From Cyclobacteriaceae bacterium (GTDB lineage Bacteria; Bacteroidota; Bacteroidia; Cytophagales; Cyclobacteriaceae): a stretch of DNA of 64,000 nt. How positions within the stretch are numbered: the stretch's first letter is position 1; each line of letters starts with the position of its first letter. Below the pieces are notes generated by a model. It did not search any database. It was not told the origin of the DNA and saw nothing but the letters and a program-made list of their open reading frames with translations. Location of the stretch: positions 1-64,000 of the forward strand of contig JAHEGY010000004.1 of the NCBI GenBank assembly GCA_024644875.1, written 5' to 3'. The translations under genes were made by a program, and so were the position numbers. Below, in pieces: positions 8,401-35,964 of the stretch.

Positions 8401-8813
8401 TTTTTTTTTCCCGTGTGATTATCTGCTAATTTGAGTCGTGGTTTATTCCCTTTAGCATCAATTCTGCTGTAAACTGCCGCATCACTAATAATGATTCTGT
8501 TGATGTTGATGCTGTCTTGTAGAAAATTCCGAAGATTAAAAAGAACCTGAATAGTGCCTATATTAATCAATTCGGTAGTATCATCGGAAAATATAACATT
8601 GGTTAATTTCAACCGGGCATTTGGAAAATTATTCAGGTAAGTTAAATGGAAGCCTTCAATATGTATGGAATTATTGAACCTGGAATTAATATATTCGACT
8701 ATCGTTTTCTCGATACTATCCTGGTGTTTGAATGAATATATTATAAGTATTGAAACAACAACCAGACCAAGAGAAAAGACACTCAAAATAAATACAATTA
8801 TTATCTTTCTCAT
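5412..8813 (-). CDS. AsmA-family inner-membrane-anchored protein
   Basis: This 1133-residue protein has one N-terminal membrane helix (residues about 5-27) followed by a very long, beta-rich region with repeated short motifs of the type NIDLDLNI and IEGFISYKAEGLF. The N-terminal part (FNNSIHIEGFHLTYLNNFPNARLKL, conserved as a block) and the C-terminal region are typical of the AsmA superfamily, related to TamB/YhdP bridge proteins that handle lipid movement across the periplasm or influence outer-membrane assembly. It ends in a basic tail rich in Lys and Arg. It is monocistronic as far as can be seen: the nearest same-strand gene is 167 bp downstream and the upstream neighbour is divergent. 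Confidence 0.8.
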   Translation of the reverse strand: MRKIIIVFILSVFSLGLVVVSILIIYSFKHQDSIEKTIVEYINSRFNNSIHIEGFHLTYLNNFPNARLKLTNVIFSDDTTELINIGTIQVLFNLRNFLQDSININRIIISDAAVYSRIDAKGNKPRLKLADNHTGKKKASIPVNIYSPDLEVNNAKLCLTNDYKKNETYVTINRSLFNLDIYQDLINLSGNFEGQLDSLKSGGMTLFSNKKVIGRDIVLKINTEENHTYLESGLLESNALTLHPTISFRKQGNGNKVKLRIESQGNFDDHLSLFNMTENISLNQLNKDAEIKISYNQDGFVNTTTRPFNQLIFEIRNADFKSPILPYPIRNMHIIGNYNNGDMHGPETNNLIVDTLNFEVEESFVDAQLTISNFIDPVVKGHFISEIDLHHFLHDDKISASGTVNADLYIDGKISELQALHLNNKQHAFGNVKIDSVDLLFRKSNQRIRIPSGSVSLDNHFIRVEDLRGQIMDSNIEIQAELNNLDQFILGRKTPLTGNIDIISDYFDLSSFNITNDTREDSENSFKLPNVNLDLNITANKIDGGFGSVDHLIINGNLDHDTLNINNMTFDYKEGKIVSSLIIQLNQHNGPQIKRGKIDAQFNQLNIDELGDTSGKGNDSTKATNLPQNIDLELALSIKDGIVLGREFSNLDMNVNFSKGDIEIKKLETELLSGNISFSSDIKYNSEGIWLIEAEGKAMFSYLSARELLNDFHKKELSSDNPKKGPEIPEIVDINLIIDIDSLLYGSKMFNDIHTGLKISRDEIDIKDFSIDLNEGLGHIDLQVVDFLMQEPRISGNIDLVIDSANVQTIYETIGGFSSNEKHTEEQITHTIPNNIDIDINLTARCLQYQNLLIQNLNLSSSMTDGILSISDINFNTSEGHVEFSGLCFQKTDKTIDGHFYSTGTKLSIEPLINSFSKTDLSDGAHGNIEGFISYKAEGLFQMDSLLYLVEGQNLFYADIVIEEGKIINNPQLENTLSFIGHKAKDSILINNSEFQIFINGTDLIIQDILVNNSISDMNIFGKYYLYDSAINLNFRVSLLDLFFRTKKKRYVDTEQGKIRLFKDLSLFIELNNSSPKHKIKIHPKRKHRLKRKDLAKEIDEIDTKYRTRLNKLYLEAEPKLQNSEQSLETLNK

Positions 8814-14206: not shown

Positions 14207-16195
14207 TTATTCTTCCGGTTCCCTGAAATCTGTTAACCGTCCGGCAAATCCTCCAAAAGGTTTCATTTCCAGCTGCAGAATTGTAGTATTATTAAAAGGC
14301 TTCTTATAATACATAAAGGAAGGGTCTTTCTCACCATCTGTTATGATTTCAGCCAGATAGCTTCCTTCTCTGATAAAGGGCAGTTTCAACTCAACAGTCC
14401 GGGATTCATCTTTACCGTTAATGCCCCCAAAATACCAGGTGCCGTTATTTTCTCTGGCCAGTATCACGTAATCCCCAGGGTACCCGGCCAGCAGCTTTGT
14501 TTCATCCCAGGATACGGGCATCTCTTTGAGGAATGTACTGGCAAATTCCGGAAGTTCCCTGAATACACTTACCCTGTCGGCAAAATGCAACAAGCTTGAT
14601 TGAAATATCACAGGAAGCGCTATTTCGTGACCGTAGGTTGTTATATGTGGGTAAGTCTGGTCACTGAATGTAACTGGTGTATAATCCATAGGCCCGACCA
14701 GGTTCCGGGTAAACGGGAGAATCGTATTATACCAAGGGGCTGCATCCGGGAACCTGGCATCAAAACTGTAACACTCCGCACCCCTTACAGCTTCCATACT
14801 CATTAAATGAGGGTACTTTCTTTCCCACCCTCTGGGGACAGTACAACCATGAAAATTAATGAGTATCTTATATTCCATAGCATCTTTCAGGATATCGTGA
14901 TATTGTTTTATAATCTCTGGTTTATCACTCTGGAAAAAGTCAACTTTGATGCCTTTCACACCTAGTTCATTCAGCTTGGCAAATTCTTCACGTCTTCTTT
15001 CTTTTATGTGCATTGCATCCCTGAGTTGTTCACCGACCTCATTATGCGGGCCACCACTGTTATACCATACAAGAGGATCTACCCCTTTGCTCAGGGAATA
15101 TTCAACCAGTTGCTCCAGGTTCCCACGTTTCATAATATTCCAGTTCGCATCGATCAGGGTGTATTCCCATCCCATATCAGCTGCCAGGTCAACAAATGTC
15201 TCGAGTTTTTCAAAATCCTGGGGACTATCATGATCGGACCACCAGCTCCAGCTGGCCCTTCCGGGTTTTATCCATGACAGGTCCTCAACGACATTAGGAT
15301 CAGCAAGATCCTGAACGATGGTAGACTCTACCATAGATGCTAAATTATCGGACACCATGATAACACGCCAGGGCATGATCCAGGGTAGTGTTGAACTGGG
15401 TTCTTGAACACATGTTCCCATTGCTTCCTCTTTTTCGGGCAATCGGATAACATAAGTTCCGTCAACCACGATGGGTTGCAGGTGCCCCCCATAGAAATTA
15501 TCGCCAAGGTTGGATTCCGTAATTAATACCCATGCATTTTGAGTTTCGAACAGGGCAGGGAAGGCCCATCCCTGATCACCCGGGGAATTTTCCCCGATTT
15601 CTGATCCATTGGTATAATAGGTTTCATAGGCCGGGGTATACTTCGTTACAGTATCGTATGGATGAATCCAAGCTTTTCCCGGCATGGGAATTTTAAAGGA
15701 GGTTTTTTCTCCTGTAACGGTATAAATAGACTCATCGTTTTCCGGGAAGCGATAGCGGAAAGCAACCCCGTCGTTTAAAGCCCTGAGGTCCACTGCCAGT
15801 AACTGGTTGGAATCATTTTTGAAAGTAATGGTCAATTCATTGCCGGAATATTCAATATGACGTTTTTTGCTTGATATCAATTCATAACTATCTGAAAACT
15901 CATTTATCTCAGTTTCTGATTCGAAGCGAAGCGCATTTGTAAAATTTCCGTCAGTTCGTGAAATCCCCAATAGCGAAGGCTTTATCATCTCAACAGGCCC
16001 TTCCCCGGTTTCCAGAAAAACCTGATAGGTAAGTTCCGTTTTGTTAATCTGATCCAGTTTTGTGTGTGTTAAGACGAATGCGAGCTTTTCATCCGGAGAG
16101 CTCAGCTCCCAGGTTCTGATCTTAGGTTCACATGCCATAAATATTAAGGTGATTAATCCAAGGAATATGGAGTTTCGCAAAAAATGGACTTTCAT
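14207..16195 (-). CDS. GH97 glycoside hydrolase, lipoprotein, retaining-type active site
   Basis: This 662-residue complete GH97 has a lipoprotein leader (LIFMAC, Cys22), an N-terminal beta-sandwich (to about residue 290), a TIM barrel with GWEYTLIDANW and a C-terminal beta-domain. In the barrel, Asp419 in KVDFF sits where the retaining GH97 alpha-galactosidase BtGH97b has its nucleophile, and Glu474 in RGAEC is 55 residues later, the spacing I recall for that enzyme's acid/base. Inverting SusB-type enzymes lack the Asp. This points to a retaining exo-alpha-galactosidase-like enzyme. EMPVSWDETKLLAGYPGDY is the family signature. The next gene downstream (13178) is a barrel protein; upstream lies a URO-D-family gene. 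Confidence 0.9.
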   Translation of the reverse strand: MKVHFLRNSIFLGLITLIFMACEPKIRTWELSSPDEKLAFVLTHTKLDQINKTELTYQVFLETGEGPVEMIKPSLLGISRTDGNFTNALRFESETEINEFSDSYELISSKKRHIEYSGNELTITFKNDSNQLLAVDLRALNDGVAFRYRFPENDESIYTVTGEKTSFKIPMPGKAWIHPYDTVTKYTPAYETYYTNGSEIGENSPGDQGWAFPALFETQNAWVLITESNLGDNFYGGHLQPIVVDGTYVIRLPEKEEAMGTCVQEPSSTLPWIMPWRVIMVSDNLASMVESTIVQDLADPNVVEDLSWIKPGRASWSWWSDHDSPQDFEKLETFVDLAADMGWEYTLIDANWNIMKRGNLEQLVEYSLSKGVDPLVWYNSGGPHNEVGEQLRDAMHIKERRREEFAKLNELGVKGIKVDFFQSDKPEIIKQYHDILKDAMEYKILINFHGCTVPRGWERKYPHLMSMEAVRGAECYSFDARFPDAAPWYNTILPFTRNLVGPMDYTPVTFSDQTYPHITTYGHEIALPVIFQSSLLHFADRVSVFRELPEFASTFLKEMPVSWDETKLLAGYPGDYVILARENNGTWYFGGINGKDESRTVELKLPFIREGSYLAEIITDGEKDPSFMYYKKPFNNTTILQLEMKPFGGFAGRLTDFREPEE

Positions 16196-16307: not shown

Positions 16308-17399
16308 TTAACTATTAAATTTAAAAATTGCTTCATACATCGCAAAAATATTTTCTACCGGTGTGTCAGGCTGAATATTGTGTGCCGGAGCAGCTATATA
16401 TCCACCACCTTTCCCTAAAATTTCACATTTTCGTGTGATGTCTGATCGAATTTCATCAGGGGATTTAAAGGGCAATAACTCCTGTACATCAATTCCTCCA
16501 AAGAAAATCAAGTCCTTGCCAAATTCTTTCTTCAGAAATTCAGGCGTCATATCTTTTGCCCTGGGTTGAATAGGATTTAAAATATCCAATCCAAGTTCAA
16601 TAAAATCGGGTATAATTGGAACAATAGATCCACAGCTATGCCAGGCGATCTTTATATCCGGATTTACATTTCGAAATGATTCAAACATTTTCCTGATCCT
16701 GGGTTTGAACCAATATCTCCAGGTTTCGGGATCCATGATCATACCATGCTGCATACCAAAATCATCACCGCACCAGAGAATCTCTGCACCTATTCTGATA
16801 AGTTCCTCTCCAATTTTCGTGTTGATCTGCATAATCCGGTCTAATAATGGCGGCATATATTCTTCAGACAGCATCAGGTCCGTCAGGAATTTCTCCAGGC
16901 CAACCAGATACCATGCTGTTTCAAATATAGAAGTTTCCAAGTCACCAATGATTACATAATCTTCTTTGAACTTCTTGACGGTTTGCCTTGCCATATCGAA
17001 TCTCCCTTTGGCTAAAGGATCGGGAAAAGGATATTCGTCGACTTCCTCAGCAGTTTTTATATTTTTCAGAGGGAATTCAATAAACTCACTGTAAAGCCCT
17101 GTGTCCTTGAAAACCATACCCCATTCATTAACAAGGTGCCCATCAGACCGTTTTTTCGTTTTACCTTCTTCAGGATACGTTGCTGCAATGGCTACAAAAT
17201 CGTTCCCCAGTTTCGTAAGAAGATCCATATGTGAAATACGTGTGGATAATAAAGAATCAATTGGTTGTTCATAGGGAACATTGATTGATCCGGAAAGATT
17301 CTCTGCTGCCTGTGGGGTCAGGGTTGCAAATACAGGTGGTCTGTCCGGCTCTTTACGACGAAGTGTTGTTAATACTCTTTCTCTGGAATTCATTTCCAA
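16308..17399 (-). CDS. URO-D-family methyltransferase-like protein (His-type)
   Basis: This 363-residue protein has the uroporphyrinogen decarboxylase fold but is not HemE: the N-terminus reads RPPVFATLTPQ instead of the RQAGR-type substrate motif. It shows the Zn-binding His-x-Cys of MtaA/MtbA methyltransferases (His254 and Cys256 in WHSCGS), but the third ligand position holds a His (His340 in APAHNIQ) instead of Cys. The segment DILNPIQPRAKDMTPEFLK is shared with the paralogues at 29213 and 32052 in this window. No corrinoid protein is adjacent; instead it lies between glycosidase genes at 14207 and 17543. A role in corrinoid-linked methyl transfer from a carbohydrate-related compound is possible but unproven. 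Confidence 0.8.
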   Translation of the reverse strand: MEMNSRERVLTTLRRKEPDRPPVFATLTPQAAENLSGSINVPYEQPIDSLLSTRISHMDLLTKLGNDFVAIAATYPEEGKTKKRSDGHLVNEWGMVFKDTGLYSEFIEFPLKNIKTAEEVDEYPFPDPLAKGRFDMARQTVKKFKEDYVIIGDLETSIFETAWYLVGLEKFLTDLMLSEEYMPPLLDRIMQINTKIGEELIRIGAEILWCGDDFGMQHGMIMDPETWRYWFKPRIRKMFESFRNVNPDIKIAWHSCGSIVPIIPDFIELGLDILNPIQPRAKDMTPEFLKKEFGKDLIFFGGIDVQELLPFKSPDEIRSDITRKCEILGKGGGYIAAPAHNIQPDTPVENIFAMYEAIFKFNS

Positions 17400-24999: not shown

Positions 25000-25701
25000 T
25001 CAGCAGCTTATTTGTTCCCTTTTCTTTCTGTAGATACAATCCTTTACATGACAGAAATCGCATGTATATCCTTTCTTCTCAGCTTTTTCCCCAATACCGA
25101 TTATTCCACTAACGGATTTGATAGGATTCATCAAGGAGGTTTCAGATAATCGAATATTACAATAATTTTCAGGAAAAAGGGAGAAGAGCTTCTGTTGTTC
25201 GCTTACATGCCATTCACAATATCCGGGACTATAACGGTCGGTGATCCCCATTCCAATTTTTTTCATTTCTGCTTCAAGAATATCCTGAATTTTATCCATG
25301 GCCTTTTCTACAATTTCAGAACCAACTACATCCACGACATATCCCTTCATCAGATCACCCTCCGACATAAGATCTTTTGACCACCTGCCCACACCCTCAC
25401 CGGCCGTGCATACAAATAATGCGGCCTTTTCAGCTTTCCGGATTAGATTTGAAATAATTGGCTTAACACTGAAGGTGACATTATCGAGGGTTACCAGGTG
25501 TTGTCTTTTATCCCTGGAGAAAGCGTCGAATATCCTGTATCCTCCCTGTATATCGCAGTAAGGTTCGACATTAGTCAGGACATCCTCTATCATAGCAGGT
25601 ATAGGGTCCGGTGCCGGTCCATCGTAGCCCATAAACTTTTCAATAGTTGATACCTCCAGCCCCAATGATTGATATTCAAATGTATATGTTTTTAGATCCA
25701 T
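25000..25701 (-). CDS. Stand-alone MetH-activation-domain-like protein with C-terminal Cys motif
   Basis: This 233-residue protein resembles the SAM-binding reactivation domain of cobalamin-dependent methionine synthase: Arg156-Tyr-Ser-Pro-Gly-Tyr161 is the SAM-binding motif, followed by CEWHVSEQQKLF, and RLSETSLMNPIKSVSG matches the conserved C-terminal part. In MetH this domain reductively remethylates oxidised Co(II) with SAM. Here it is a separate protein, similar in design to Thermotoga TM0269. Its end carries Cys214-x2-Cys217-x4-Cys222 and Cys233, which could bind a metal or Fe-S cluster and supply electrons. It is the last gene of the corrinoid operon, 1 bp after the GTPase gene. Confidence 0.88.
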   Translation of the reverse strand: MDLKTYTFEYQSLGLEVSTIEKFMGYDGPAPDPIPAMIEDVLTNVEPYCDIQGGYRIFDAFSRDKRQHLVTLDNVTFSVKPIISNLIRKAEKAALFVCTAGEGVGRWSKDLMSEGDLMKGYVVDVVGSEIVEKAMDKIQDILEAEMKKIGMGITDRYSPGYCEWHVSEQQKLFSLFPENYCNIRLSETSLMNPIKSVSGIIGIGEKAEKKGYTCDFCHVKDCIYRKKREQISC

Positions 25702-25702
25702 G

Positions 25703-26626
25703 TTATTTGGTCAATTGTCTGAAATCCCTGCTAAATTCTGATAAATTAAAATCTTCTCCCATTAAAATCAAAGCCGTATTGCTTGTTTTATTATCTATCC
25801 GTTTAATATCAATCTTTTCAAATACAGTTTGTACCGACACAATACTGTGATCATCCAGAAGAACAAAACCCTTGATGCGTATAGTCTGATCAATATATCG
25901 ATTGATCAATTGCTTTAATTTGACCAAATTGATCGTTCTGCTGGTTTTAAAAACCCTGGCATTCAGGGTAGGAGGGCCAGCACCTTTTAAACCAGTTGAT
26001 TTTTTATTTTTTAAGTTTTTATCAGTTTCAAAATTACTGAAAATATGGTCGGCATCAACTTTGCAGTACTCAGATTCTATGACTTCTGCAAGTGGGTTTA
26101 TTTCCTGAACACTGTGCTTTACGGATTCTAATTGTGATGATTCCACCAGATCGGATTTATTTAAAACGATAATATCAGCAATTGCGATCTGGTGTTTTAT
26201 CCTTGTCAGGACAGAAATCATCTTATGATAGTACAGGGTATCAATTATACACCAGCAGGTTGAAAGGTGAACAAGCTTCTTTAGTTTTTCGGATTGGAGT
26301 ATTTCTGAAATTGCGATGGGATCTGAGAGGCCGGATGATTCGAGTATAACGAGGTCAGGATTTTCCTGTTCCACAAAACTTTTCAGAGATACTATGAAAT
26401 CTCCCAGCAAACAAACACAAAATACAGATCCATTATTGATTTCAAGTATTTTAAATGGCTTTTCCAGGTTCCTGAGTTCCACACTATCGATATTGGCGGG
26501 TGCAAATTCATTCTGAATTATACAGATTTTAAATCGATCATTATTTTGCTCAATAATATGCTTCAGAAAAGTGGTTTTACCCGACCCTAGAAATCCGGTT
26601 ACCAGATAAAATGGTACAGCTGCCAT
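25703..26626 (-). CDS. CobW-family (COG0523) GTPase
   Basis: This 307-residue G3E-family GTPase has the P-loop at residues 11-19 (GFLGSGKTT), an ESSGLSDP switch region, the base-recognition motif NKSD and a C-terminal CobW-C-like domain. The family's metal-binding GCxCC-type site is reduced here to Cys70-Val-Cys72 (VFCVC). Relatives deliver metals (Zn, Co, Ni) or support cobalamin enzymes. In this operon, 10 bp after the homocysteine methyltransferase and 1 bp before the activation protein, it may load zinc into the methyltransferases or assist corrinoid loading. That is inferred from position. Confidence 0.88.
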   Translation of the reverse strand: MAAVPFYLVTGFLGSGKTTFLKHIIEQNNDRFKICIIQNEFAPANIDSVELRNLEKPFKILEINNGSVFCVCLLGDFIVSLKSFVEQENPDLVILESSGLSDPIAISEILQSEKLKKLVHLSTCWCIIDTLYYHKMISVLTRIKHQIAIADIIVLNKSDLVESSQLESVKHSVQEINPLAEVIESEYCKVDADHIFSNFETDKNLKNKKSTGLKGAGPPTLNARVFKTSRTINLVKLKQLINRYIDQTIRIKGFVLLDDHSIVSVQTVFEKIDIKRIDNKTSNTALILMGEDFNLSEFSRDFRQLTK

Positions 26627-26636
26627 TAGATCATCT

Positions 26637-27518
26637 TTATTTCTTTATCATTTCCTTCAGTTTAGAGATATGAGCAGGAGTTGTTCCGCAACATCCGCCA
26701 ATAATATTGGCCCCGGCATCTATAATATTGTGAACATAGGAACTCATTTGTTCCGGGGTTTCAGGAAACACAGTTTGTCCGTCTTTATAAACTGGAATAC
26801 CGGCATTTGCATGGACCAGAATAGGAATATCTGGATCTGCTTTACGAATTTCTCTGACAATGCCGATCATATCCTCAAAACCATTTCCACAATTGGCTCC
26901 TATAATGTCAATTTTTTCTGTTTTTAGTTGCTGGACCATGTCTGAGGGAGAAAATCCCATCATTGTTCTGAATTCACCGGTTTTTGTTTTTTCAAAGGTC
27001 ATCGTACATATTACTTCCAGGTCTGTAGATGATCTTGCAGCTTTGATGGCTGTTCTGGCTTCTGCAATGTCAGACATTGTTTCAATAATAATCGCATCGG
27101 CCTTTCCATCCTCTAATCCTCTGGCCTGCTCTGAGAAAGATTCAAAAAGCGCTTCCTCAGTGATTTCTCCCATCATAAGTATTTTTCCCGTAGGTCCGAT
27201 GGAACCCAACACATAATGATCAGATCCGGCTGCCTTTCTCGATATTGATGCCGCTGCCTTATTCAGTTCATAAGCTTTATCCTCCAGGCCATAGTGAGCT
27301 AGTTTAATACTGCTGCCGCCAAAGCTGTTGGTTTCAACCATATTAGATCCGGCATCAATATAACTCCTCGCAATATTGAAAACCTCTTCAGGATGTTCCA
27401 AGTTCCAAAGTTCGGGACATTCCCCTGCCTTAAGTCCCTTGGCCTGCAGAAAGGTTCCCCAAGCCCCATCAGAGACCAGTATTTTACCTTTTTGTAATGC
27501 TTCTTTAATTTTTCCCAT
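26637..27518 (-). CDS. Homocysteine S-methyltransferase domain protein
   Basis: This 293-residue protein is equivalent to the first (homocysteine-binding) barrel of MetH. The zinc ligands are visible: Cys210 in GANCGNG and Cys276-Cys277 in GGCCGTTP. SDGAWGTFLQ and VETNSFGGS are the usual N-terminal signatures. It should transfer a methyl group from a methylated corrinoid protein to homocysteine, or to another thiol, giving methionine. Its start codon directly abuts the stop of the upstream gene (TAAATG), so translation is probably coupled. A MetH-like folate-binding domain is missing from the whole operon. Confidence 0.9.
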   Translation of the reverse strand: MGKIKEALQKGKILVSDGAWGTFLQAKGLKAGECPELWNLEHPEEVFNIARSYIDAGSNMVETNSFGGSSIKLAHYGLEDKAYELNKAAASISRKAAGSDHYVLGSIGPTGKILMMGEITEEALFESFSEQARGLEDGKADAIIIETMSDIAEARTAIKAARSSTDLEVICTMTFEKTKTGEFRTMMGFSPSDMVQQLKTEKIDIIGANCGNGFEDMIGIVREIRKADPDIPILVHANAGIPVYKDGQTVFPETPEQMSSYVHNIIDAGANIIGGCCGTTPAHISKLKEMIKK

Positions 27519-29135
27519 TTAAATATCTTTAATCCATTCCTTAATAATTCTGACATCCGGGACCTCACCCTGAGCTTTTAGCTTGTATTCAGCGACAATG
27601 ATCGCTGGTGTATTTATTATGCCATATGATGCCAGTATCTTTTCATCAGTACTTGTGGTAATCTCAAGATCTACTCCAGTTTCATTGATTGCAGCCATAA
27701 CATTTTTTTCTGCCTGTATACATTCATTTTTGGATGTACCCAGGATCAGGATCTCTCCCTTCTTTGACTTAATTTTCAATTTTAATTTCTCGTTGATCCG
27801 TTTCTGTATTGCAGCAATCAATTCATTCTTCGGTGGGATCTTAGAAACGAAGGAGATCTTTCCATCAATACATATTGTAGGAATATTCTTGACCATGAGT
27901 GATGACATAAAAGAAATGCTCTCCATTTTTTTAATGGGATGTTCCCGCCATTCGACGATTCCTTCAAAATGAGGAGCAATTTTCTTTACGGCTTCAACCA
28001 TATACTGACATGGGGCACATGACTCAGAATCCAGGGTTATTATGTCTACAATGACCTTATCGGTCTGACCATAATCCTTCATATTTAAAAGATCCAGACT
28101 TGTACCCTCAATATCCATCGTCCGGACAACATCCCTGGTATAATTATCATAAACTACCTCTACAATCGCCTCCAGGTTTTCAGGTGGTGTATCCATCGGA
28201 AGGTCGCATCCGGGCGACAAAATGAATCCTTCCTTCCCACCAATATCAAGACACTCAACAGCTTCCTTCTGAGCATCCTCTTTTGAACCGAGCAATAGAA
28301 CAAGCGTTAATTTTAAATTACCCCCAAAACTTAAATTATACTTTAATGACATTTCCCTCACATAATCCAGGGGTATATTTTCATCAATAGATATATTATC
28401 CGGTTTACATTTGCACATCTCCTCAATATTTTGCTGAGCATGACCACAAACAAAAAAGGAACTGTAGGCTTTTTTGGACTTTATAAATTGAAAAGTCTTA
28501 CTTACATATGGTGTTACATAGGTTTCAAAGGAAACAGGATCTATCTGACTGGTCATGGGATCAACAACGGCAATAACATCACAACCGGCCTCTATATAAT
28601 ATCCGGCTAAAGCATCACTCACCTGAGAGGTAAATTGCATTAACTCATGAACCATTTCTGGATCTTCCATCATCCCAACAAAGATCTCAGTGCCCAGAAG
28701 GTGTAATCCCAATGTAAAAGGACCTGTGATTAATCCATATAAGGCCAAATCCGGATATTTTTCCTTTAAAATTTTTGTGGTTTTAATTACTTCAGGGATC
28801 CTGCCATCTTCTTTTTTAGGTATGGATAATTGCTGAAGGGAAATTCCATTTATCATAGGATGAGATATAACAGCCGGAGGGGCACTTTCACTCCATTTTA
28901 ATTCACATCCAAGGGCTTCTGCCTCTATCTGAAGATCAAATACAACTGGGATGCCGTCTGGTTTGTACCTTTCTATGGCGGCACTGAGGCCATTGACCAT
29001 GTGCGTTGAAGATTTCAGGTAACCTTCGGCATTCACACCAATTAGTTTCCCTCCGTGACATCCTACAAAAGGTACCCATGGCGTTCTTTCTGTTTCTTCT
29101 CGTTTAAAAGCCTTAAATATATATTCTTTACCCAT
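27519..29135 (-). CDS. URO-D-type methyltransferase fused to two thioredoxin-fold domains
   Basis: This 538-residue protein has three parts. Residues 1 to about 345 are an MtaA/CmuA-like URO-D domain; the zinc site is altered: Phe228 replaces the usual first His (FFVCGHA, Cys230), with His232 close by, and the second Cys is kept (Cys310 in SPGCDLP). Residues about 360-450 are a thioredoxin-like domain with Cys373-Ala-Pro-Cys376 and cis-Pro segment NIPTICIDG. Residues about 460-538 are a second, small thioredoxin-like domain (MTH895 type) starting ILILGTS with Cys472 and cis-Pro NTPAII. The redox domains may reduce a disulfide, supply a thiol acceptor or help corrinoid reactivation. It lies mid-operon, 77 bp after the 29213 gene. 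Confidence 0.88.
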   Translation of the reverse strand: MGKEYIFKAFKREETERTPWVPFVGCHGGKLIGVNAEGYLKSSTHMVNGLSAAIERYKPDGIPVVFDLQIEAEALGCELKWSESAPPAVISHPMINGISLQQLSIPKKEDGRIPEVIKTTKILKEKYPDLALYGLITGPFTLGLHLLGTEIFVGMMEDPEMVHELMQFTSQVSDALAGYYIEAGCDVIAVVDPMTSQIDPVSFETYVTPYVSKTFQFIKSKKAYSSFFVCGHAQQNIEEMCKCKPDNISIDENIPLDYVREMSLKYNLSFGGNLKLTLVLLLGSKEDAQKEAVECLDIGGKEGFILSPGCDLPMDTPPENLEAIVEVVYDNYTRDVVRTMDIEGTSLDLLNMKDYGQTDKVIVDIITLDSESCAPCQYMVEAVKKIAPHFEGIVEWREHPIKKMESISFMSSLMVKNIPTICIDGKISFVSKIPPKNELIAAIQKRINEKLKLKIKSKKGEILILGTSKNECIQAEKNVMAAINETGVDLEITTSTDEKILASYGIINTPAIIVAEYKLKAQGEVPDVRIIKEWIKDI

Positions 29136-29212
29136 TGTCGAATAATTTTCTTTTTGAAGATCCGCTATTTCTATAAAAAAATCAGACCCCGATAATTAAC
29201 AGATCCATTTTA

Positions 29213-30229
29213 TTAAAAGTTTTTCGATTGATGCCTGACTATATTAATCATTTCTCTGATGTTTTCAGGTGGAATATCACCTGTTAATGCATGCGATGGG
29301 GAGAAAATGTAACCACCCTGTGAGCCAAGCTCATCCAGCAATTTATAACTTGCATCACTTACCTCTTTAATCGAGCCATAAGGAAGTGTTTTTTGGATGC
29401 TCAATCCACCCATGAAAGATATCTTTCCATTAAAACTTTTAAAAACATCATAAATATCCATGACCTCAGGTTGAAAAGGGTCAAATACATCGATCCCGAC
29501 CTCTATCATATCCGGGATCAGCGATTCAACCTTTCCGCAACAATGTTGTCCAATATACAGATTTTCTGCTTTCGCAGCATCGCACATCCGCATCAATCTG
29601 GGTTTTATAAATTCCCTCCAGAGATCCCCTCCAATTAATAACCCGTTTTGGCCGGCCCAATCATCTCCAAATCTTACACCATCGAGCCCCCCGATCTTAG
29701 CCGATTCCTGAATAAGTTTTATATTGTATTCGACAATATTATCCAGCAGGTCATGAACAAATTCCGGTTCCAGCAACATCCATTGCATGAGGTTTTCCAT
29801 GCCCACAATTGACCATGCGCGCTCAAACAAAGTAAATCCTATAGATAAAAAATGAAAGTGGTCAGGAAAACAGGAATTATTTCGCTCTATATATTTAAAT
29901 ACCGGCAGATCATCTGCTGAAGGGAATTGAAATCCTTTAAGACTCGGTTTATCAATTGGGTATCTGTCAACTATTCCAAGTGTTCTGTCTTTCGTTTTGT
30001 TCCAGGTTATTCCAAAATAATCTTTAAAATAACCTGGTCTGACTTCTAACCAGCCACTATTGGTTTGAGAGAAAACCGCATATGAACCAGTGTCTAATAT
30101 CTCATCGAAAGTCCCTCCCAAAAAACTTTGGTACCGTTCTTCTGCCTCAATTGTAAAGCGGATTACATAGGGTACCGGAAAGCATTTCCTGAAAGTGATC
30201 GCTTTGATAAAAGACTCTTTTTTCGTCAT
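29213..30229 (-). CDS. URO-D-family methyltransferase-like protein (His-type)
   Basis: This 338-residue URO-D-fold protein has the His-x-Cys motif as His229-Cys-Cys231 (GQHCCGKV) and a His at the third ligand position (His313 in SPSHALTGDIP), like the paralogues at 16308 and 32052. It also shares GDDWAGQNG and VFDPFQPEVMD with them. It lacks the HemE substrate signature. It starts 1 bp after the corrinoid-protein stop codon, which strongly suggests that the pair works together: methylation of the corrinoid cofactor from a donor, or removal of the methyl group. The natural donor cannot be read from the sequence. Confidence 0.87.
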   Translation of the reverse strand: MTKKESFIKAITFRKCFPVPYVIRFTIEAEERYQSFLGGTFDEILDTGSYAVFSQTNSGWLEVRPGYFKDYFGITWNKTKDRTLGIVDRYPIDKPSLKGFQFPSADDLPVFKYIERNNSCFPDHFHFLSIGFTLFERAWSIVGMENLMQWMLLEPEFVHDLLDNIVEYNIKLIQESAKIGGLDGVRFGDDWAGQNGLLIGGDLWREFIKPRLMRMCDAAKAENLYIGQHCCGKVESLIPDMIEVGIDVFDPFQPEVMDIYDVFKSFNGKISFMGGLSIQKTLPYGSIKEVSDASYKLLDELGSQGGYIFSPSHALTGDIPPENIREMINIVRHQSKNF

Positions 30230-30230
30230 A

Positions 30231-30899
30231 TCATGCTACCAGTGAGTTAAGGTATTCAACAGCACCCTGTGGATCCGGGGAATAAAAATCCGCACCAATC
30301 TTGTTTTTAAAATCCTCGCTTACAGGCGCGCCTCCAATTAATACGCGTGTTTCAGGGGATGCAGCTTTTACTTCTTTCAGGATGTGCTCCATATTTATCA
30401 TGGTAGTAGTTAGCAAGGCAGATAAGCCAACATGACTTCCGGGGTTATCTTTTATCGCATTGACAAATTTATCCGCACTTACATCCGTACCCAGGTCGAC
30501 AACTTCCCATCCATTTCCTTCTACCATCATGGATACCAGGTTCTTTCCAATATCATGAAGATCCCCTGCAACTGTACCAATTATAAATATGCCACTTCGT
30601 TTAACATCACCAGATTGGAAGAATGGTTTAAGATGCTCAATAGCTGTGCTCATGGCCTTTGCTGACATTAATACCTGAGGGACAAAGACCTTGTTCTCCC
30701 GGAATTTTATGCCAATACGTTCCATACCAATAACCAATCCTTTCTTCAGAATATCTTCAGGAGCCAGTCCTGTATCGAGTGCTTCTTTTGTCAGTTCGTC
30801 TGCACCCAATTGCCCTTTCATATCGGGCGGATAGGGTGACTGCTGGTTTATCTTTCCAAATTCTACACAGTAAGCGATTTTTTCTAAAATTTCACTCAT
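30231..30899 (-). CDS. Corrinoid protein (MtaC/MtbC/MetH B12-module type)
   Basis: This 222-residue protein has the two-part B12 module: an N-terminal helical cap (residues about 35-95) and a Rossmann domain. The cobalt-coordinating motif D-x-H-x-x-G is Asp113-Leu-His115-Asp-Ile-Gly118 in GDLHDIGKN. The loop SALLTTTM and GGAPVSEDF are the typical nucleotide-tail contacts. It should carry the methyl group between methyltransferases. Residues 1-35 contain an unusual insert (QQSPYPPDMKGQLG) before the helical cap. It is the only corrinoid protein in the window and is followed 1 bp later by the 29213 gene, so several URO-D proteins may share it. Confidence 0.94.
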   Translation of the reverse strand: MSEILEKIAYCVEFGKINQQSPYPPDMKGQLGADELTKEALDTGLAPEDILKKGLVIGMERIGIKFRENKVFVPQVLMSAKAMSTAIEHLKPFFQSGDVKRSGIFIIGTVAGDLHDIGKNLVSMMVEGNGWEVVDLGTDVSADKFVNAIKDNPGSHVGLSALLTTTMINMEHILKEVKAASPETRVLIGGAPVSEDFKNKIGADFYSPDPQGAVEYLNSLVA

Positions 30900-30921
30900 A
30901 ATCTATGAATTATAATTAATG

Positions 30922-31920
30922 TTAATTTGATGATTTTCTTATTGCCATCAGGTTTTCTATTGGAGTATTAACTGTAATCTCACAACCTCCTGAAATAATA
31001 TGTTTTCTACCCATTTCTTTCTTAATAGTTTCACCGGTCATGATTTCCAACTGCTCTGATGAGCTATTCTGGATCAATACCGGGTCGATATTTCCACAGC
31101 GTATCACATCAGGTCCGATGACATCATGCGCAATGTCCATATCCACCTGCCAGTCTAGATCCAGTATATCCATGCCCAGATCTTTTATTGAAGCTAGTAA
31201 ATGACTTATGTCCCCACATATATGCAACTTTACTTTACCTCCACATTCATGAACATAATCAATGATTTCTTTCTGTCTTTCCTTCACGAAAGCATCATAA
31301 GTGCCGATATCAATTTGAGAGCATATAGCGTCCCCCATGCCAATGATATCACATCCCTCAAGGATCTGTAATCGCGCAAATTCCTTGGCTGTTACCACAC
31401 ATTTATCCATTAATATATTTGCAAAGTCGGGATCTATCATCATTTGCATCAGCATTTCACCAACACCTGCCAGGTCACATGCTTCAGCCAGGGGGCCTTC
31501 TATCCAGCCTATTACGGGTATATCCCCTTTTAACCTTTTTGCAAAATATTTAGCTCCTTCGATTCTATCCCGGGTTCGTTCTTCTTTATAAAGGTCCGGA
31601 TTCTTTAACGCTTTGGCATCCTCAAGACTCTTTACAATAATTTCCTCACATTTTGGAACAGCTTCATCCGGGAATGATACTTTGGCGCCGAAGGCTGAAG
31701 TTTCGCGATAAGGATCTGAAATGAGGCCAACGAGATCGGTATCAAAATATTCCATGGCCTTAATATTGCACTCGACGAGTACACGGTAATCAGAAGCAAA
31801 TTCACGATAGGTTTTCTGGCTGAATCTGGCAGCGAAATGCATTAAGATCGGCCGGAACAGTTTCGCTGTTTCGAGATCCATACCATTCAGAAGTCTGTCA
31901 AACTTTTGTTTTTTAGTCAT
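30922..31920 (-). CDS. MtaA/MtbA-type corrinoid methyltransferase (URO-D family, Cys-type)
   Basis: This 332-residue protein has the complete zinc signature of MtaA/MtbA: His233-x-Cys235 in LHICGD and Cys313 in SGGCEITVNTP. In methanogens these enzymes move the methyl group from the corrinoid protein to coenzyme M; in bacteria without coenzyme M the acceptor must be another thiol or the flow may be reversed. GWIEGPLAEACDL and MGDAICSQI are conserved family segments. It has no RQAGR-type decarboxylase signature. It lies 22 bp upstream of the corrinoid protein gene and 131 bp downstream of the 32052 gene. Confidence 0.9.
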   Translation of the reverse strand: MTKKQKFDRLLNGMDLETAKLFRPILMHFAARFSQKTYREFASDYRVLVECNIKAMEYFDTDLVGLISDPYRETSAFGAKVSFPDEAVPKCEEIIVKSLEDAKALKNPDLYKEERTRDRIEGAKYFAKRLKGDIPVIGWIEGPLAEACDLAGVGEMLMQMMIDPDFANILMDKCVVTAKEFARLQILEGCDIIGMGDAICSQIDIGTYDAFVKERQKEIIDYVHECGGKVKLHICGDISHLLASIKDLGMDILDLDWQVDMDIAHDVIGPDVIRCGNIDPVLIQNSSSEQLEIMTGETIKKEMGRKHIISGGCEITVNTPIENLMAIRKSSN

Positions 31921-32051
31921 GATCAGTTTCTTTCCACCTCTTTAATTTCATCAGCCTCTGTCCAATTCCTTTGAATCATTGTATTTCAAAAGCGCAATTA
32001 TAAAATAATCCATTCAGGTATCCTGGAATGTTACCATTAGAAATAATTCTT

Positions 32052-33308
32052 CTAGCCATCCACCTTTTTGATGGTTTCGATCATGGCAATAATGTTACTT
32101 GCCGGTACATTCGCCTGGATATTGTGAACAGTATTAAAAACATATCCTCCATTTTTGCCAAATATCCTTAAATTCTCTTTTACCTGATTTATAACTTCCT
32201 TTTCTGTTCCAAATGCTAATACTTTTTGCGTATCAACTCCGCCACCCCAGAAGGTGATGCTGTCACCATAGGTGTCTTTGAGATGTTGTGGATCCATACC
32301 CGTGGCATTGATCTGTACCGGATTTAAAATATCAAAACCAGCTTCAATAAAACTGTTGATAAATGGTTCTACAGCACCGCATGAATGTTTGAATGTTTTC
32401 CAGTTCGTATTTTCATGTATCCAGTCATTGATCTTTTTATAATAGGGGAGATACATTTCCTCGAGTGTGTCAATTCCACAAAACTGAGAATCCTGGGTCC
32501 CAAAATCTGTCCCGCATAAAAAGGCTATATCAACTTTATCCTGGACAACCTCATGGATCTTTTCAAGGTTGGCTAATGCTATATCACTCTGTTTACTGAA
32601 TATCTCATGTATGTAATCAGGACGCATAATGACGGACATATACCATTCGGCAATATCCCTGATACCTTTCGGATTTTTAAGATTCAATCCAGGCACTAAT
32701 GCGATGTCACCAAAGGCAGTTCCACCAAAATTGGCGATTACAGCCTTATCTGTATCTTTAACTTTTTTAATCTCCTTCCGCCAATACTCCAGGTCGTCAT
32801 CAGATATTGGATTAAATTCTTCCAAATTATCAGCAGGATCCAGTTTAGATTCATCAATTGGTTCCTGGCGAATTACAGCATCAAAAAAATAACTGGCTTT
32901 GGGCATCTTAGCACTGGCCGGGGCTTCCAGGTCACCTTCCGGATGAATCAGCAGGTTCCCATCATCATCAAAGGAAGTATTAAATTCCTTAGGTAGCAAT
33001 ACGGTCTGACCCCAGAATGTCTTGAACTCTTTCAGCTCACCACTATTGTTGATGCCGAACATATTATTTTTTGGGCTTAGTCCGATAACATCAATCTGAA
33101 GAGCTTCCATCAGCTCAGGATCGATTTCACCAAGCATCTGATAAGGCTCAATAACTCTTACAGGACTTTTTTCAAAACCAAAATGTTCTCTTAATCTTTC
33201 AATGGCTAAAACATGTATGCCTGTAACAGCAGTTGCACCGAAGTCAACTGGCGTTCTATCCGGGGTTTTATGTGCTAGGGCTTTAAGGGTTCTTTCCTTT
33301 GAAGTCAT
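32052..33308 (-). CDS. URO-D-family methyltransferase-like protein (His-type, long form)
   Basis: This 418-residue protein has His308-Ser-Cys310 (KHSCGAVEP) and a His at the third ligand position (His395 in TVHNIQANVP). The barrel is extended by an insert around residues 105-165. It is most similar to the 16308 protein (DILNPVQ, GGGVDTQKV versus DILNPIQ, GGIDVQEL). It is the first gene of the tight corrinoid operon and has a candidate promoter at 33344-33351. Probably it activates one methyl donor and passes the group to the shared corrinoid protein; donor identity is unknown. Confidence 0.87.
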   Translation of the reverse strand: MTSKERTLKALAHKTPDRTPVDFGATAVTGIHVLAIERLREHFGFEKSPVRVIEPYQMLGEIDPELMEALQIDVIGLSPKNNMFGINNSGELKEFKTFWGQTVLLPKEFNTSFDDDGNLLIHPEGDLEAPASAKMPKASYFFDAVIRQEPIDESKLDPADNLEEFNPISDDDLEYWRKEIKKVKDTDKAVIANFGGTAFGDIALVPGLNLKNPKGIRDIAEWYMSVIMRPDYIHEIFSKQSDIALANLEKIHEVVQDKVDIAFLCGTDFGTQDSQFCGIDTLEEMYLPYYKKINDWIHENTNWKTFKHSCGAVEPFINSFIEAGFDILNPVQINATGMDPQHLKDTYGDSITFWGGGVDTQKVLAFGTEKEVINQVKENLRIFGKNGGYVFNTVHNIQANVPASNIIAMIETIKKVDG

Positions 33309-33380: not shown

Positions 33381-34937
33381 TTAGTTATAATAATCCAGAA
33401 TCATTTGTTGAATTTCCCGATGAATAATAGGTGAGGTTTCGGGGCCGAGTGAATTGATTTCGCCATATGGAGCCTCTTTTTGACCGTAGGTATGGGGAGG
33501 ATTCTCATCCCATTCGCTTTTTGGAATTATATATCCCAACTCGTCGTTTCCGAGACCTATAATGAATTTGTATTTTCCTTTCATTAAATCTCTCGAGACA
33601 GGGTTTTCAAGTGGGCCGATCTTGAAATCCTGACCTTCCGGGGATTCAATGCCTCCGTTTATAAGCTCAGGATATACTTCTCCGGGATATGTTAAGAAGC
33701 TGGCTGGTCCAATACCGAGATAGGCAATTTCTGTCCGCATATGGTTCCATTTACTATAACCTCTATTCAGGATCCCGAGTGCTGCGCCCAGTTTAAATAA
33801 TGGGTTCTCAAGGGGAAGATCAAAAGTCCTGGCAGAGAGCCCCATGCCTACGCTGGTTAATGTATCAGTCGAGTTGATCAATGCCTTTAAGGCGTGAAAA
33901 GCTATTTGATTTCCCTGTGATTCTGCTTTATCAAAATCAGGTTTCAAATATACCCGGTCTGACCAGGGGTCTTTTACCGGAAAATCAGGTAATGTTGTCA
34001 TTAGCCCACCTATAGCTCCATTTATAAAGATTGCTGTACCTCCAAGTCCCTCGATTATCAAACTATCATTTGCGTATACTCCATTCTCCACAGCTTCCCG
34101 TACATAATGGGGAAAATCAGAAGTGATCAACAGGTTTTCGCTCCACAAGGTCTCAGGATGATTTGCCCATCCGATCAGCGTTCCTATTGTTTCGTCAGAA
34201 TCTGAATTCAATACTTGCATAACGGTCAGCGGAAGATCAAATACCAGAGGACTTCGGGTATCCGTAACCAGATCTTTTAAAATTTCATGATCTACGGCGA
34301 ATTTTAACCGTGCTGCCTTTAAATTATCACATGCCATTTCAATTGACTTCATAATCTGGCTTTTTACAAATTCCAGATAAGTTTTATCTACACCACTTTT
34401 GAGAAATCCAGGCCCCCACAATCCCATAATATCAGGTGCTTCATGTGTATGAGTAGAAGATACGATAGTATAACTGATCCCGGTACCTGGATCTAAATTG
34501 TTTCGGATATCAATTAATTCATCATGAAACAGCCCTATTGCATCAATTACGGTTAATGAGATCCGGTTATTATTACCTTCAATAACCATTGTTCGTGCCC
34601 AGAGATCATCATGAACTCCATTTGCAGCCCTTTTATTATCAAATCCTGCCATCCAAACTGCGTCAAATACACCATTCCCATTCCCATCAGTAAAGGTATC
34701 GCCATCATCTGGATCATATTTTGCGTCCTGGTTACTGTCTTTCCAGCGATCTGGAACATCCGGAGTGATTTTCATGGCTGAGAAGCCAGCCCTGATCTTA
34801 CTTTCAGATTCCGGTTTTATTTTTATATCAACTTTATAATCAGGATTTCTGTCTTTTAAGTTAAAAAAGACAAACAATGAGAGTGCCAATATCAGTAATA
34901 TAAGAAAAACACCAACCCATTTCAGAATTCTTAACAT
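33381..34937 (-). CDS. Neutral/alkaline ceramidase-like hydrolase, membrane-anchored
   Basis: This 518-residue protein has one N-terminal membrane helix (residues about 6-28) and then a periplasmic domain resembling the N-terminal half of neutral/alkaline ceramidases: AGFSAMKITPD at the start, the zinc motif STHTHEAPD, and a second metal region GWANHPETL. Between residues about 62 and 95 lies an Asp/Asn/Gly-rich insert (DSNQDAKYDPDDGD, DGNGNGVFD) like dockerin or EF-hand calcium loops. Known relatives cleave the amide of ceramide, but many Bacteroidota members have no proven substrate. It is 34 bp downstream of the GH43/32-like gene and 72 bp upstream of the corrinoid operon. Confidence 0.82.
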   Translation of the reverse strand: MLRILKWVGVFLILLILALSLFVFFNLKDRNPDYKVDIKIKPESESKIRAGFSAMKITPDVPDRWKDSNQDAKYDPDDGDTFTDGNGNGVFDAVWMAGFDNKRAANGVHDDLWARTMVIEGNNNRISLTVIDAIGLFHDELIDIRNNLDPGTGISYTIVSSTHTHEAPDIMGLWGPGFLKSGVDKTYLEFVKSQIMKSIEMACDNLKAARLKFAVDHEILKDLVTDTRSPLVFDLPLTVMQVLNSDSDETIGTLIGWANHPETLWSENLLITSDFPHYVREAVENGVYANDSLIIEGLGGTAIFINGAIGGLMTTLPDFPVKDPWSDRVYLKPDFDKAESQGNQIAFHALKALINSTDTLTSVGMGLSARTFDLPLENPLFKLGAALGILNRGYSKWNHMRTEIAYLGIGPASFLTYPGEVYPELINGGIESPEGQDFKIGPLENPVSRDLMKGKYKFIIGLGNDELGYIIPKSEWDENPPHTYGQKEAPYGEINSLGPETSPIIHREIQQMILDYYN

Positions 34938-34971: not shown

Positions 34972-35964
34972 TTAGTCAGTGGACTTTATCCACTTTAATC
35001 TGGCAATCCGGATCCCCTTTAAATCATCTTTCAAGGCTGCGATATACCATTGATCACCGAGTTTAACAATCTCCGGTGCAGCAACAGGGAGATCCTTAAC
35101 CAGATAATTATCGTTATCGATACCAAAATCTTTTGGATTTCCTGATCTGTAAATATTGGTTTTTGGTGGGCTGATCAATTTACCGGATTTATAATTACCA
35201 TAAGAAAACGTCCTGAAAAGAAAATATGGGCCTTTAGCAGGTTGGACCACATGCGGACATTCTGCGTACCATAATTCCCCCTTGCCGGGGCTTCCTCCAT
35301 AACTAACCATTTCAGCGTCACCCCACGAATAATAATCGGGTGAGGTTCGGACATATATTGCACCATCATTGTTCGGATGTGCTGTATAATAGCAATACCA
35401 CAGACCACTTATTTTGATGACCATTGGATCTCTTGTGTTTGTTTCTTCTAAATCTCCGAAAAGCCTGGGGGTCTTGTTTCGGAGAACCCGTTCGAAAGTT
35501 TTGCCATCATCACTTATCGCCAGGCAAATGTTATTCCAGTCGCCGTAGAACATATAATATTTACCTTGCTCCTTTATCACATAGGGCGCCTGGAGTCCAC
35601 CAGCTGTTTCTCCCAGCGTTGTATCTGCCCTCATGGCGATTCCCATCGGGATCCAGTCCCTGTCGTTAATGGAATTTCCTTCCCATCTGTGGAACAGTCT
35701 CGTAGCCCCTGATTCTTTGGTTTTACGTATACAGGACCACAGTTGCCAGGTTCCATCAGCAGCTTGCCATAGACCGAAATCTACGGGTTGTTGTTCCGGA
35801 GATGAAAGTTCACCAAGGTCAGGGTTCCCGGCTACCTGCCACCATTCTCCATCAATTTCCGGGACCAATGAAGATGTTGCGGTTCTATTTTTGGAACAGG
35901 AAATAGAAAGAATAAGCAATAAAAGGGTAGGGGAAGATGATTTAAGTATTCTAATTAACTCCAT
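34972..35964 (-). CDS. GH43/GH32-like five-bladed propeller lipoprotein
   Basis: This 330-residue lipoprotein (leader ending LSISC, Cys23) has the five-bladed beta-propeller pattern of clan GH-F/J enzymes: VDFGLWQAADGTWQLW, LQAPYVIKEQGKYYMFYGD, TRDPMVIK and YAECPHVV. The Asp in VDFGLW, Asp in TRDP and Glu in AECPHV stand where GH43/32 enzymes have nucleophile, transition-state stabiliser and acid/base, but an exact family is uncertain. It probably acts on a glycan at the cell surface. It shares a transcript with the ceramidase-like gene. Confidence 0.75.
   Translation of the reverse strand: MELIRILKSSSPTLLLLILSISCSKNRTATSSLVPEIDGEWWQVAGNPDLGELSSPEQQPVDFGLWQAADGTWQLWSCIRKTKESGATRLFHRWEGNSINDRDWIPMGIAMRADTTLGETAGGLQAPYVIKEQGKYYMFYGDWNNICLAISDDGKTFERVLRNKTPRLFGDLEETNTRDPMVIKISGLWYCYYTAHPNNDGAIYVRTSPDYYSWGDAEMVSYGGSPGKGELWYAECPHVVQPAKGPYFLFRTFSYGNYKSGKLISPPKTNIYRSGNPKDFGIDNDNYLVKDLPVAAPEIVKLGDQWYIAALKDDLKGIRIARLKWIKSTD

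Follow-up and report, generated by a model that had tools for sequence, protein, structure and literature searches.

The stretch of DNA considered here, referred to as the window, comprises the first 64,000 nucleotides of contig JAHEGY010000004.1 from a member of the Cyclobacteriaceae (phylum Bacteroidota; assembly GCA_024644875.1). Between positions 25000 and 33308 it carries a minus-strand run of eight co-directional open reading frames (ORFs), which is best explained, with a probability that we put at about 0.62, as a corrinoid-dependent O-demethylation hub for methylated sugars, where donor-specific proteins of the uroporphyrinogen decarboxylase (URO-D) fold would load a corrinoid protein and homocysteine would act as the methyl sink. 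Homocysteine is well supported by inference as the methyl acceptor, and a sugar is, by analogy with related loci, the likely donor for the window cluster. The reactions, the direction of methyl flow and the sugar donors are all read from gene content, residues, co-occurrence and gene neighbourhoods. The eight genes, separated in order by 1, 10, 0, 77, 1, 22 and 131 bp, encode the following proteins (lengths in amino acids, aa):

25000-25701, minus strand: ACT (233 aa), an activation (reactivation) protein of the MetH type on its own chain; PF02965, 32 bits, a weak match that clears the cut-off and is the least secure of the eight assignments.
25703-26626, minus strand: CobW (307 aa), a CobW/COG0523-type GTPase and probable metallochaperone; PF02492 (135 bits) and PF07683.
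26637-27518, minus strand: HcyMT (293 aa), a homocysteine S-methyltransferase of the MetH homocysteine-domain type, the proposed methyl-acceptor enzyme; PF02574 (S-methyl_trans), 250 bits.
27519-29135, minus strand: UroTrx (538 aa), a URO-D domain with two thioredoxin-like domains (CAPC), role uncertain; PF01208 (215 bits) and PF13192 (Thioredoxin_3).
29213-30229, minus strand: UroB (338 aa), a URO-D protein and proposed donor-specific demethylase; PF01208, 90 bits.
30231-30899, minus strand: Corr (222 aa), the corrinoid methyl carrier; PF02310 (B12-binding) and PF02607 (B12-binding_2).
30922-31920, minus strand: UroC (332 aa), an MtaA-like URO-D protein (S-type); PF01208, 186 bits.
32052-33308, minus strand: UroD418 (418 aa), a URO-D protein and proposed donor-specific demethylase; PF01208, 61 bits.

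The families were assigned by a Pfam search in which each assignment was confirmed, and an NCBIfam search of the eight proteins returned no equivalog above cut-off for any of them. The ORF calls and Pfam results agree with the initial annotation, which had described eight minus-strand genes at these positions and with this spacing.

What is it about the cluster that points to homocysteine? HcyMT contains the zinc cysteines Cys210, Cys276 and Cys277, which are invariant in an alignment of 26 sequences, and its best solved relative is the MetH of Thermotoga maritima (1q7m, E 9e-51, 176 bits), compared with scores of 66 bits to BHMT and 48 bits to the bacterial homocysteine S-methyltransferase 5dml. 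HcyMT is thus far closer to the homocysteine domain of MetH than to either of these enzymes, which weakens the alternative of S-methylmethionine, and an assignment as an S-methylmethionine/betaine-type enzyme was rejected because MetH is the closest relative. Corr has the motif D113xH115xxG118, within which Asp113-x-His115 is invariant among 24 sequences, and ACT has the motif RYSPGYCxW, of which RYSPGY is nearly invariant among 29 activator sequences; the residues singled out by the initial annotation in all three proteins are therefore conserved in the homologue alignments. An AlphaFold 2 (AF2) model of ACT made from 29 natural homologues (predicted local distance difference test, pLDDT, 91.7) finds its top PDB match in the TM0269 MetH activation domain (1j6r, E 2.8e-13, TM 0.75/0.87), and its convincing matches are limited to MetH activation domains. 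Four cysteines (C162, C214, C217 and C222) are invariant in the free-standing ACT family, represented by the window protein and 28 homologues, and the CxxCxxxxC tail of ACT is absent from the MetH of the same genome; these cysteines are a possible Fe-S site and a possible electron input. CobW is kept beside ACT and HcyMT at four related loci (L060, L061, L063 and L064).

An intact MetH is also encoded on another contig (L077:8711-12424) of the window genome, which measures 5.06 Mb and is 97% complete. For this reason the cluster was rejected as the main methionine synthase of the cell, and the description of it as a dismantled methionine synthase gives way to that of an additional system. The absence of the methyl-tetrahydrofolate module, also claimed at the outset, holds, since a PF00809 search of the eight-gene cluster gave no pterin module and a profile search of the genome found this family only in the full MetH and one FolP-like protein, with no MtrH/CmuB-type partner for Corr among them. 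Within the genome PF02607 is found in MetH, Corr and a 300-aa protein on contig C230 whose size and weak score suggest a regulator, leaving Corr, MetH apart, as the one clear free methyl-corrinoid carrier. A search of the genome for a RACE-type activase (PF14574) found none, and ACT is the only dedicated activator candidate. Most of the 24 other genomes that bear the core of the system hold PF00809 only in FolP and MetH, the exceptions being G066, whose own related cluster contains an MtrH-like gene, G132, which has an additional PF00809 protein of 272 aa, G334, G548 and G664, where a second match lies inside a protein of 611-637 aa, and G505, with a PF00809 fragment at a contig end. The related HcyMT/URO-D/corrinoid cluster of G066 (L069, 9893-19279) also includes MetF-like, MtrH-like (PF00809, 52 bits), amidohydrolase and molybdopterin oxidoreductase genes, and in G132 (L068) a RACE activase and an ACT are found in one cluster (5419-6939 and 7637-8401) beside a GH127 gene.

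The order ACT-CobW-HcyMT-UroTrx-(UroB)-Corr-UroC-UroD418 is conserved in a congener and, in part, in one other genus from the family, which argues that the cluster is not a chance arrangement. The congener (G004) retains the full order with a GH36 gene inserted between UroC and UroD418, and the genomes of the other genus hold more or less complete sets of ACT, CobW, HcyMT, UroTrx, Corr, UroC and UroD418 at loci that also carry a GntR regulator with a periplasmic-binding-protein-like domain, PhyH dioxygenases and a sugar-isomerase-like protein. With related genomes counted separately, free-standing HcyMT orthologues (41-72% identity) occur in 11 of the 296 family genomes and Corr orthologues in 12, with both together in 10 (genus-level hypergeometric p 7e-7). 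Relatives of UroD418 (50% identity), UroC, Corr, ACT and HcyMT are found together in another class, in G548 (L120). Genes for PhyH-type 2-oxoglutarate dioxygenases are found repeatedly next to URO-D genes, both in L062-L064 and at scattered loci of G130/G158, and are possibly an oxygen-dependent alternative for demethylation. Further ACT homologues (41-48% identity) occur in metagenome-assembled genomes (MAGs) of Draconibacterium/Prolixibacteraceae (L018:5573-6280, L019:637-1344, L020:9935-10684 and L029:9998-10708), next to a peptidyl-prolyl-isomerase-like gene and on stretches without a match to Corr, HcyMT or URO-D.

The ten core-positive family genomes contain 13, 8, 14, 13, 5, 5, 3, 2, 2 and 1 PF01208 genes, and the genome with a single gene has a URO-D-like gene missed by Pfam and placed by sequence (L068:1643-2707). 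Extra URO-Ds, of which a core-positive genome has up to 13, are absent from all 20 core-negative genomes, congeners of positive genomes included, which hold the heme-type URO-D only (one lacks even this gene, and in another it is called as two fragments); the difference, 9/10 against 0/20, has a Fisher p of 7e-7, with the species not being independent. Scattered URO-Ds of the window genome on contigs C200, C47 and C52 are 50%, 47% and 59% identical over their full length to core-adjacent URO-Ds, namely those that neighbour Corr, HcyMT and ACT in genomes other than this one. Because URO-D copy number tracks the core and the scattered proteins resemble the core-adjacent ones, the most economical interpretation is one corrinoid carrier common to many donor enzymes.

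The metal triads of these proteins offer a guide to their substrates, given the rule of Kountz and Balskus (PMC10418091) that His-Cys-Cys marks sulfur/selenium (S/Se) enzymes and that replacement by a carboxylate or another residue points to oxygen substrates, with His-Cys-His falling outside the rule as stated. By this rule UroC looks like a thiol enzyme, as it has the triad His233-Cys235-Cys313, the sole His-Cys-Cys among the four cluster URO-Ds, and in alignment with the methylcobalamin:coenzyme M methyltransferase 4ay7 retains all three metal ligands. The URO-Ds of the GH115-linked clade in the second class have a His-x-Asp (HDG) triad and, by the same rule, look like O-demethylases. UroTrx has Phe-Cys-Cys, with Phe replacing His in 5/5 orthologues and the thioredoxin motif CAPC invariant, and UroB, UroD418 and a separate URO-D of the window at 16308-17399 have His-Cys-His. 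In UroD418 the residues His308, Cys310 and His395 are invariant among 14 relatives, and its AF2 model (pLDDT 84.8) matches URO-D and MtaA-type structures; relatives of UroB adjoin Corr in L060, L130 and L131. The initial assignment of all four proteins to the MtaA/MtbA/CmuA kind thus fits UroC and does not fit the triads of UroTrx, UroB and UroD418. An 88-sequence URO-D tree groups the proteins largely by metal triad, with several long branches and unsure deep splits.

The link to sugars comes from gene neighbourhoods. O-Methyl sugars occur widely, in plant xylan as well as in algal and bacterial glycans, and enzymes of glycoside hydrolase (GH) family GH115 free 4-O-methyl-glucuronic acid from xylan. 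In the other class of the phylum, relatives of the cluster lie within operons for the degradation of xylan, and the genes for GH115, GH43, Corr, HcyMT, ACT and URO-D stand in a row in L114, L116 and L176, and inverted in L182, L192 and L195. GH115 lies within ~10 kb in 17 of the 35 loci of the His-x-Asp clade and in 14 of 32 when the three loci that prompted the hypothesis are set aside, where ~1% would be expected by chance on the basis of 1-2 GH115 copies per genome where found (binomial p below 1e-19, ignoring shared descent). Other neighbours of the 35 loci include HcyMT (20), Corr (20) and UxuA (11), HcyMT is kept in 9/10 of the more distant clade members (about 36% identity), and in the most compact loci (e.g. 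L176 and L182) HcyMT is the sole acceptor enzyme in the row. Sugar donors are therefore well supported for the GH115 loci as far as sequence can predict them, most strongly 4-O-methyl-glucuronate. Around 20 scattered-URO-D loci from two related genomes, GH29 and GH95 fucosidases, RhaT, Gfo/Idh, 3-keto-disaccharide hydrolase and sulfatase genes are found above same-genome controls, in modest numbers (sulfatase 6 versus 4, GH29 4 versus at most 2). The donors had initially been described as unknown and non-folate; the second part is supported by the lack of a pterin module, and the first can be narrowed, with O-methylated sugars the leading candidate.

In the proposed pathway, glycosidases would release an O-methyl sugar during glycan breakdown, and a donor-specific URO-D (UroB, UroD418 or one of the URO-Ds scattered elsewhere in the genome) would move its methyl group to Co(I)-Corr. 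HcyMT would then use CH3-Co(III)-Corr to methylate zinc-bound homocysteine, generating methionine without methyl-folate. Any Co(II)-Corr formed by oxidation of the Co(I) species would be re-methylated reductively by ACT with S-adenosylmethionine, as in the activation domain of MetH, and the demethylated sugar would enter normal catabolism, which for glucuronate would involve UxuA and a UxuB-like short-chain dehydrogenase/reductase. CobW probably loads or supplies the metal, UroTrx is maybe a redox partner, and UroC, with its His-Cys-Cys triad, maybe provides a second, thiol-directed methyl exit or entry; a second exit through UroC would fit the loci without HcyMT, L021-L028.

Several points weigh against this pathway. 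The window URO-Ds are His-Cys-His, His-Cys-Cys or Phe-Cys-Cys and not His-x-Asp, such that the donor chemistry is carried over by analogy from relatives. A search for GH115 in the window genome found none, and GH115-released 4-O-methyl-glucuronate was rejected as the donor in this organism for that reason; the genome nonetheless has a URO-D of the GH115-linked clade on C200 (50% identity). Some core loci, for example L117, L125 and L126, are not beside glycan genes, and URO-D/Corr/ACT loci without a nearby HcyMT occur in L021-L028, L130 and L131. In addition MetH could take the methyl group from Corr in trans, and a rich methyl supply might exceed the demand for methionine, meaning that another sink may exist. 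The loci L021-L028, from Paludibacter, Bacteroides sp. 224 and other MAGs and read as a variant of the hub, hold Corr, a His-Cys-Cys URO-D and ACT, with a GH31-like gene, a sodium/solute symporter-like gene (both judged by eye) and a 354-aa URO-D-like His-x-Asp protein as neighbours.

Of the alternatives, the best placed, and an unlikely one, is S/Se-directed methyl transfer of the type associated with mlp gene clusters (MGCs), to which UroC would belong as an MtaA-like protein with the ligand set of the S/Se enzymes (PMC10418091), in a cluster that has no H4folate (tetrahydrofolate) methyltransferase and with homocysteine itself a thiol acceptor. However, the genome is without RACE, a defining part of such clusters, two of the four URO-Ds have His-Cys-His and one Phe-Cys-Cys, and the neighbours in relatives are glycan genes, with no sulfur or selenium genes seen adjoining the operon. 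Next in rank, and again improbable, is the same hub with HcyMT as a minor component, where the main exit would be from UroC to another thiol or through MetH acting on Corr in trans, so that the methyl group ends as a volatile thiol or methyl-folate. The HcyMT-less loci L021-L028, the intact MetH and a methyl supply that may outstrip methionine demand would all suit such an arrangement, but in each of the compact loci L176, L182, L186 and L192 a single donor URO-D accompanies Corr and HcyMT, with no His-Cys-Cys URO-D on the stretch, and HcyMT presence tracks Corr across the family.

Could the methyl groups instead come from aromatic methyl ethers, such as the methoxy groups of lignin, with homocysteine as the sink? 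Known URO-D-family O-demethylases do act on methoxy-aromatics via a corrinoid protein (PMC8630106, PMC13222342), yet the genome encodes neither an MtrH-type methyltransferase 2 (MT2) nor RACE, no aromatic-degradation genes were seen near the operon or among the neighbour counts, and the repeated linkage is to glycan genes, all of which makes this source very unlikely. Least probable of all is a back-up methionine synthase supplied with methyl-folate by FolP-like or MetH pterin domains in trans, with the URO-Ds unrelated: the grouping of three MetH-like functions is as expected, but an intact MetH is already there with no spare pterin-domain protein, URO-D copy number tracks the core and the L176-type loci hold no other possible donor.

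How does the proposed sugar demethylation hub compare with known systems? The closest in concept is MtgBCDE of Ruegeria and Phaeobacter, a split methionine synthase that also serves the demethylation of glycine betaine (PMC12478193), and the linking of demethylation to methionine synthesis through one carrier is already published for that system. Both have a separate corrinoid protein and a PF02574 homocysteine module, with demethylation and methionine synthesis on one corrinoid carrier. MtgBCDE, however, depends on MtgD, a pterin module that can work in either direction, uses an MttB-type betaine donor enzyme (PF06253) and no URO-D, and mostly replaces MetH; the window cluster, which is the part of the genome scanned for PF06253, has URO-D donors only and no pterin module, its activator is a MetH-type domain and its genome retains MetH. 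The type 1 MGCs of anaerobes, for which methionine has been proposed as a possible end point, are also similar by gene content, with at least two URO-Ds, a corrinoid protein and no H4folate methyltransferase, but have a Ram/RACE activase, nearly all-HCC URO-Ds and a link to S/Se (PMC10418091), where the present system has a MetH-type ACT, HCH, FCC and HDG URO-Ds (HCC in one of the four in the cluster), HcyMT and a glycan context.

The Mtv, Odm and Mto systems and chloromethane Cdm (PMC8630106, PMC13222342) likewise use a URO-D-fold methyltransferase 1 (MT1) to methylate a small corrinoid protein, a likeness seen here in sequence and predicted structure, but end in tetrahydrofolate or tetrahydromethanopterin (H4MPT) via a folate-type MT2 and rely on a reductive activase, whereas the acceptor enzyme here is a homocysteine methyltransferase. 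MetH itself shares the homocysteine module with zinc cysteines and the corrinoid and activation functions, and differs in that the present functions are on separate chains without a pterin module, with a true MetH encoded elsewhere in the genome. MesA-D make methionine from a donor other than methyl-folate, for some probably via a corrinoid protein, but are related to MetE (PMC7857596), while HcyMT is a PF02574 barrel. The combination of URO-D donors, a PF02574 acceptor, a free MetH-type activator and a glycan context matches none of the compared systems in its defining features. A literature search for corrinoid or URO-D enzymes together with sugar methyl ethers, from which subscription literature was mostly excluded, found no paper joining them.

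Three further features of the window accompany the cluster:

33381-34937, minus strand: ceramidase-like (neutral/alkaline) gene upstream of the cluster, co-directional and possibly on the same transcript; PF04734, 33.5 bits, gap 72 bp.
34972-35964, minus strand: GH43/GH32-like glycosidase gene upstream, co-directional; PF00251 at 28 bits above cut-off and PF04616 at 27 bits below cut-off, gap 34 bp.
16308-17399, minus strand: separate URO-D gene, a candidate satellite demethylase on the same corrinoid carrier; PF01208, 102 bits.

A homologue of the GH43/GH32-like protein (459 bits) is found near the operon of the congener, beyond UroD418 (L060:12181-13263), and the separate URO-D has orthologues in two core-bearing genomes (59% identity). 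The latter adjoins a gene for a large secreted protein, GH97-type glycosidase-like as judged by eye (14207-16195). An Rfam search of the window and 14 relatives detected tRNAs only, with no riboswitch or other RNA upstream.

A known demethylation route for such a sugar, that of 6-O-methyl-galactose, depends on an oxygen-requiring P450. At roughly even odds, the cluster represents a general, oxygen-independent route for the removal of sugar methyl ethers, in which many donor-specific URO-Ds serve one B12 carrier and the methyl group is kept as methionine with no folate step, in at least two classes of one phylum; its substrates would be 4-O-methyl-glucuronate from xylan and, probably, methylated forms of fucose, rhamnose or galactose. 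If this is true, a missing step for 4-O-methyl-glucuronate would be supplied, a large set of proteins annotated as 'uroporphyrinogen decarboxylase' would gain a function, and the methyl groups of polysaccharides would represent a direct, folate-free source of methionine.

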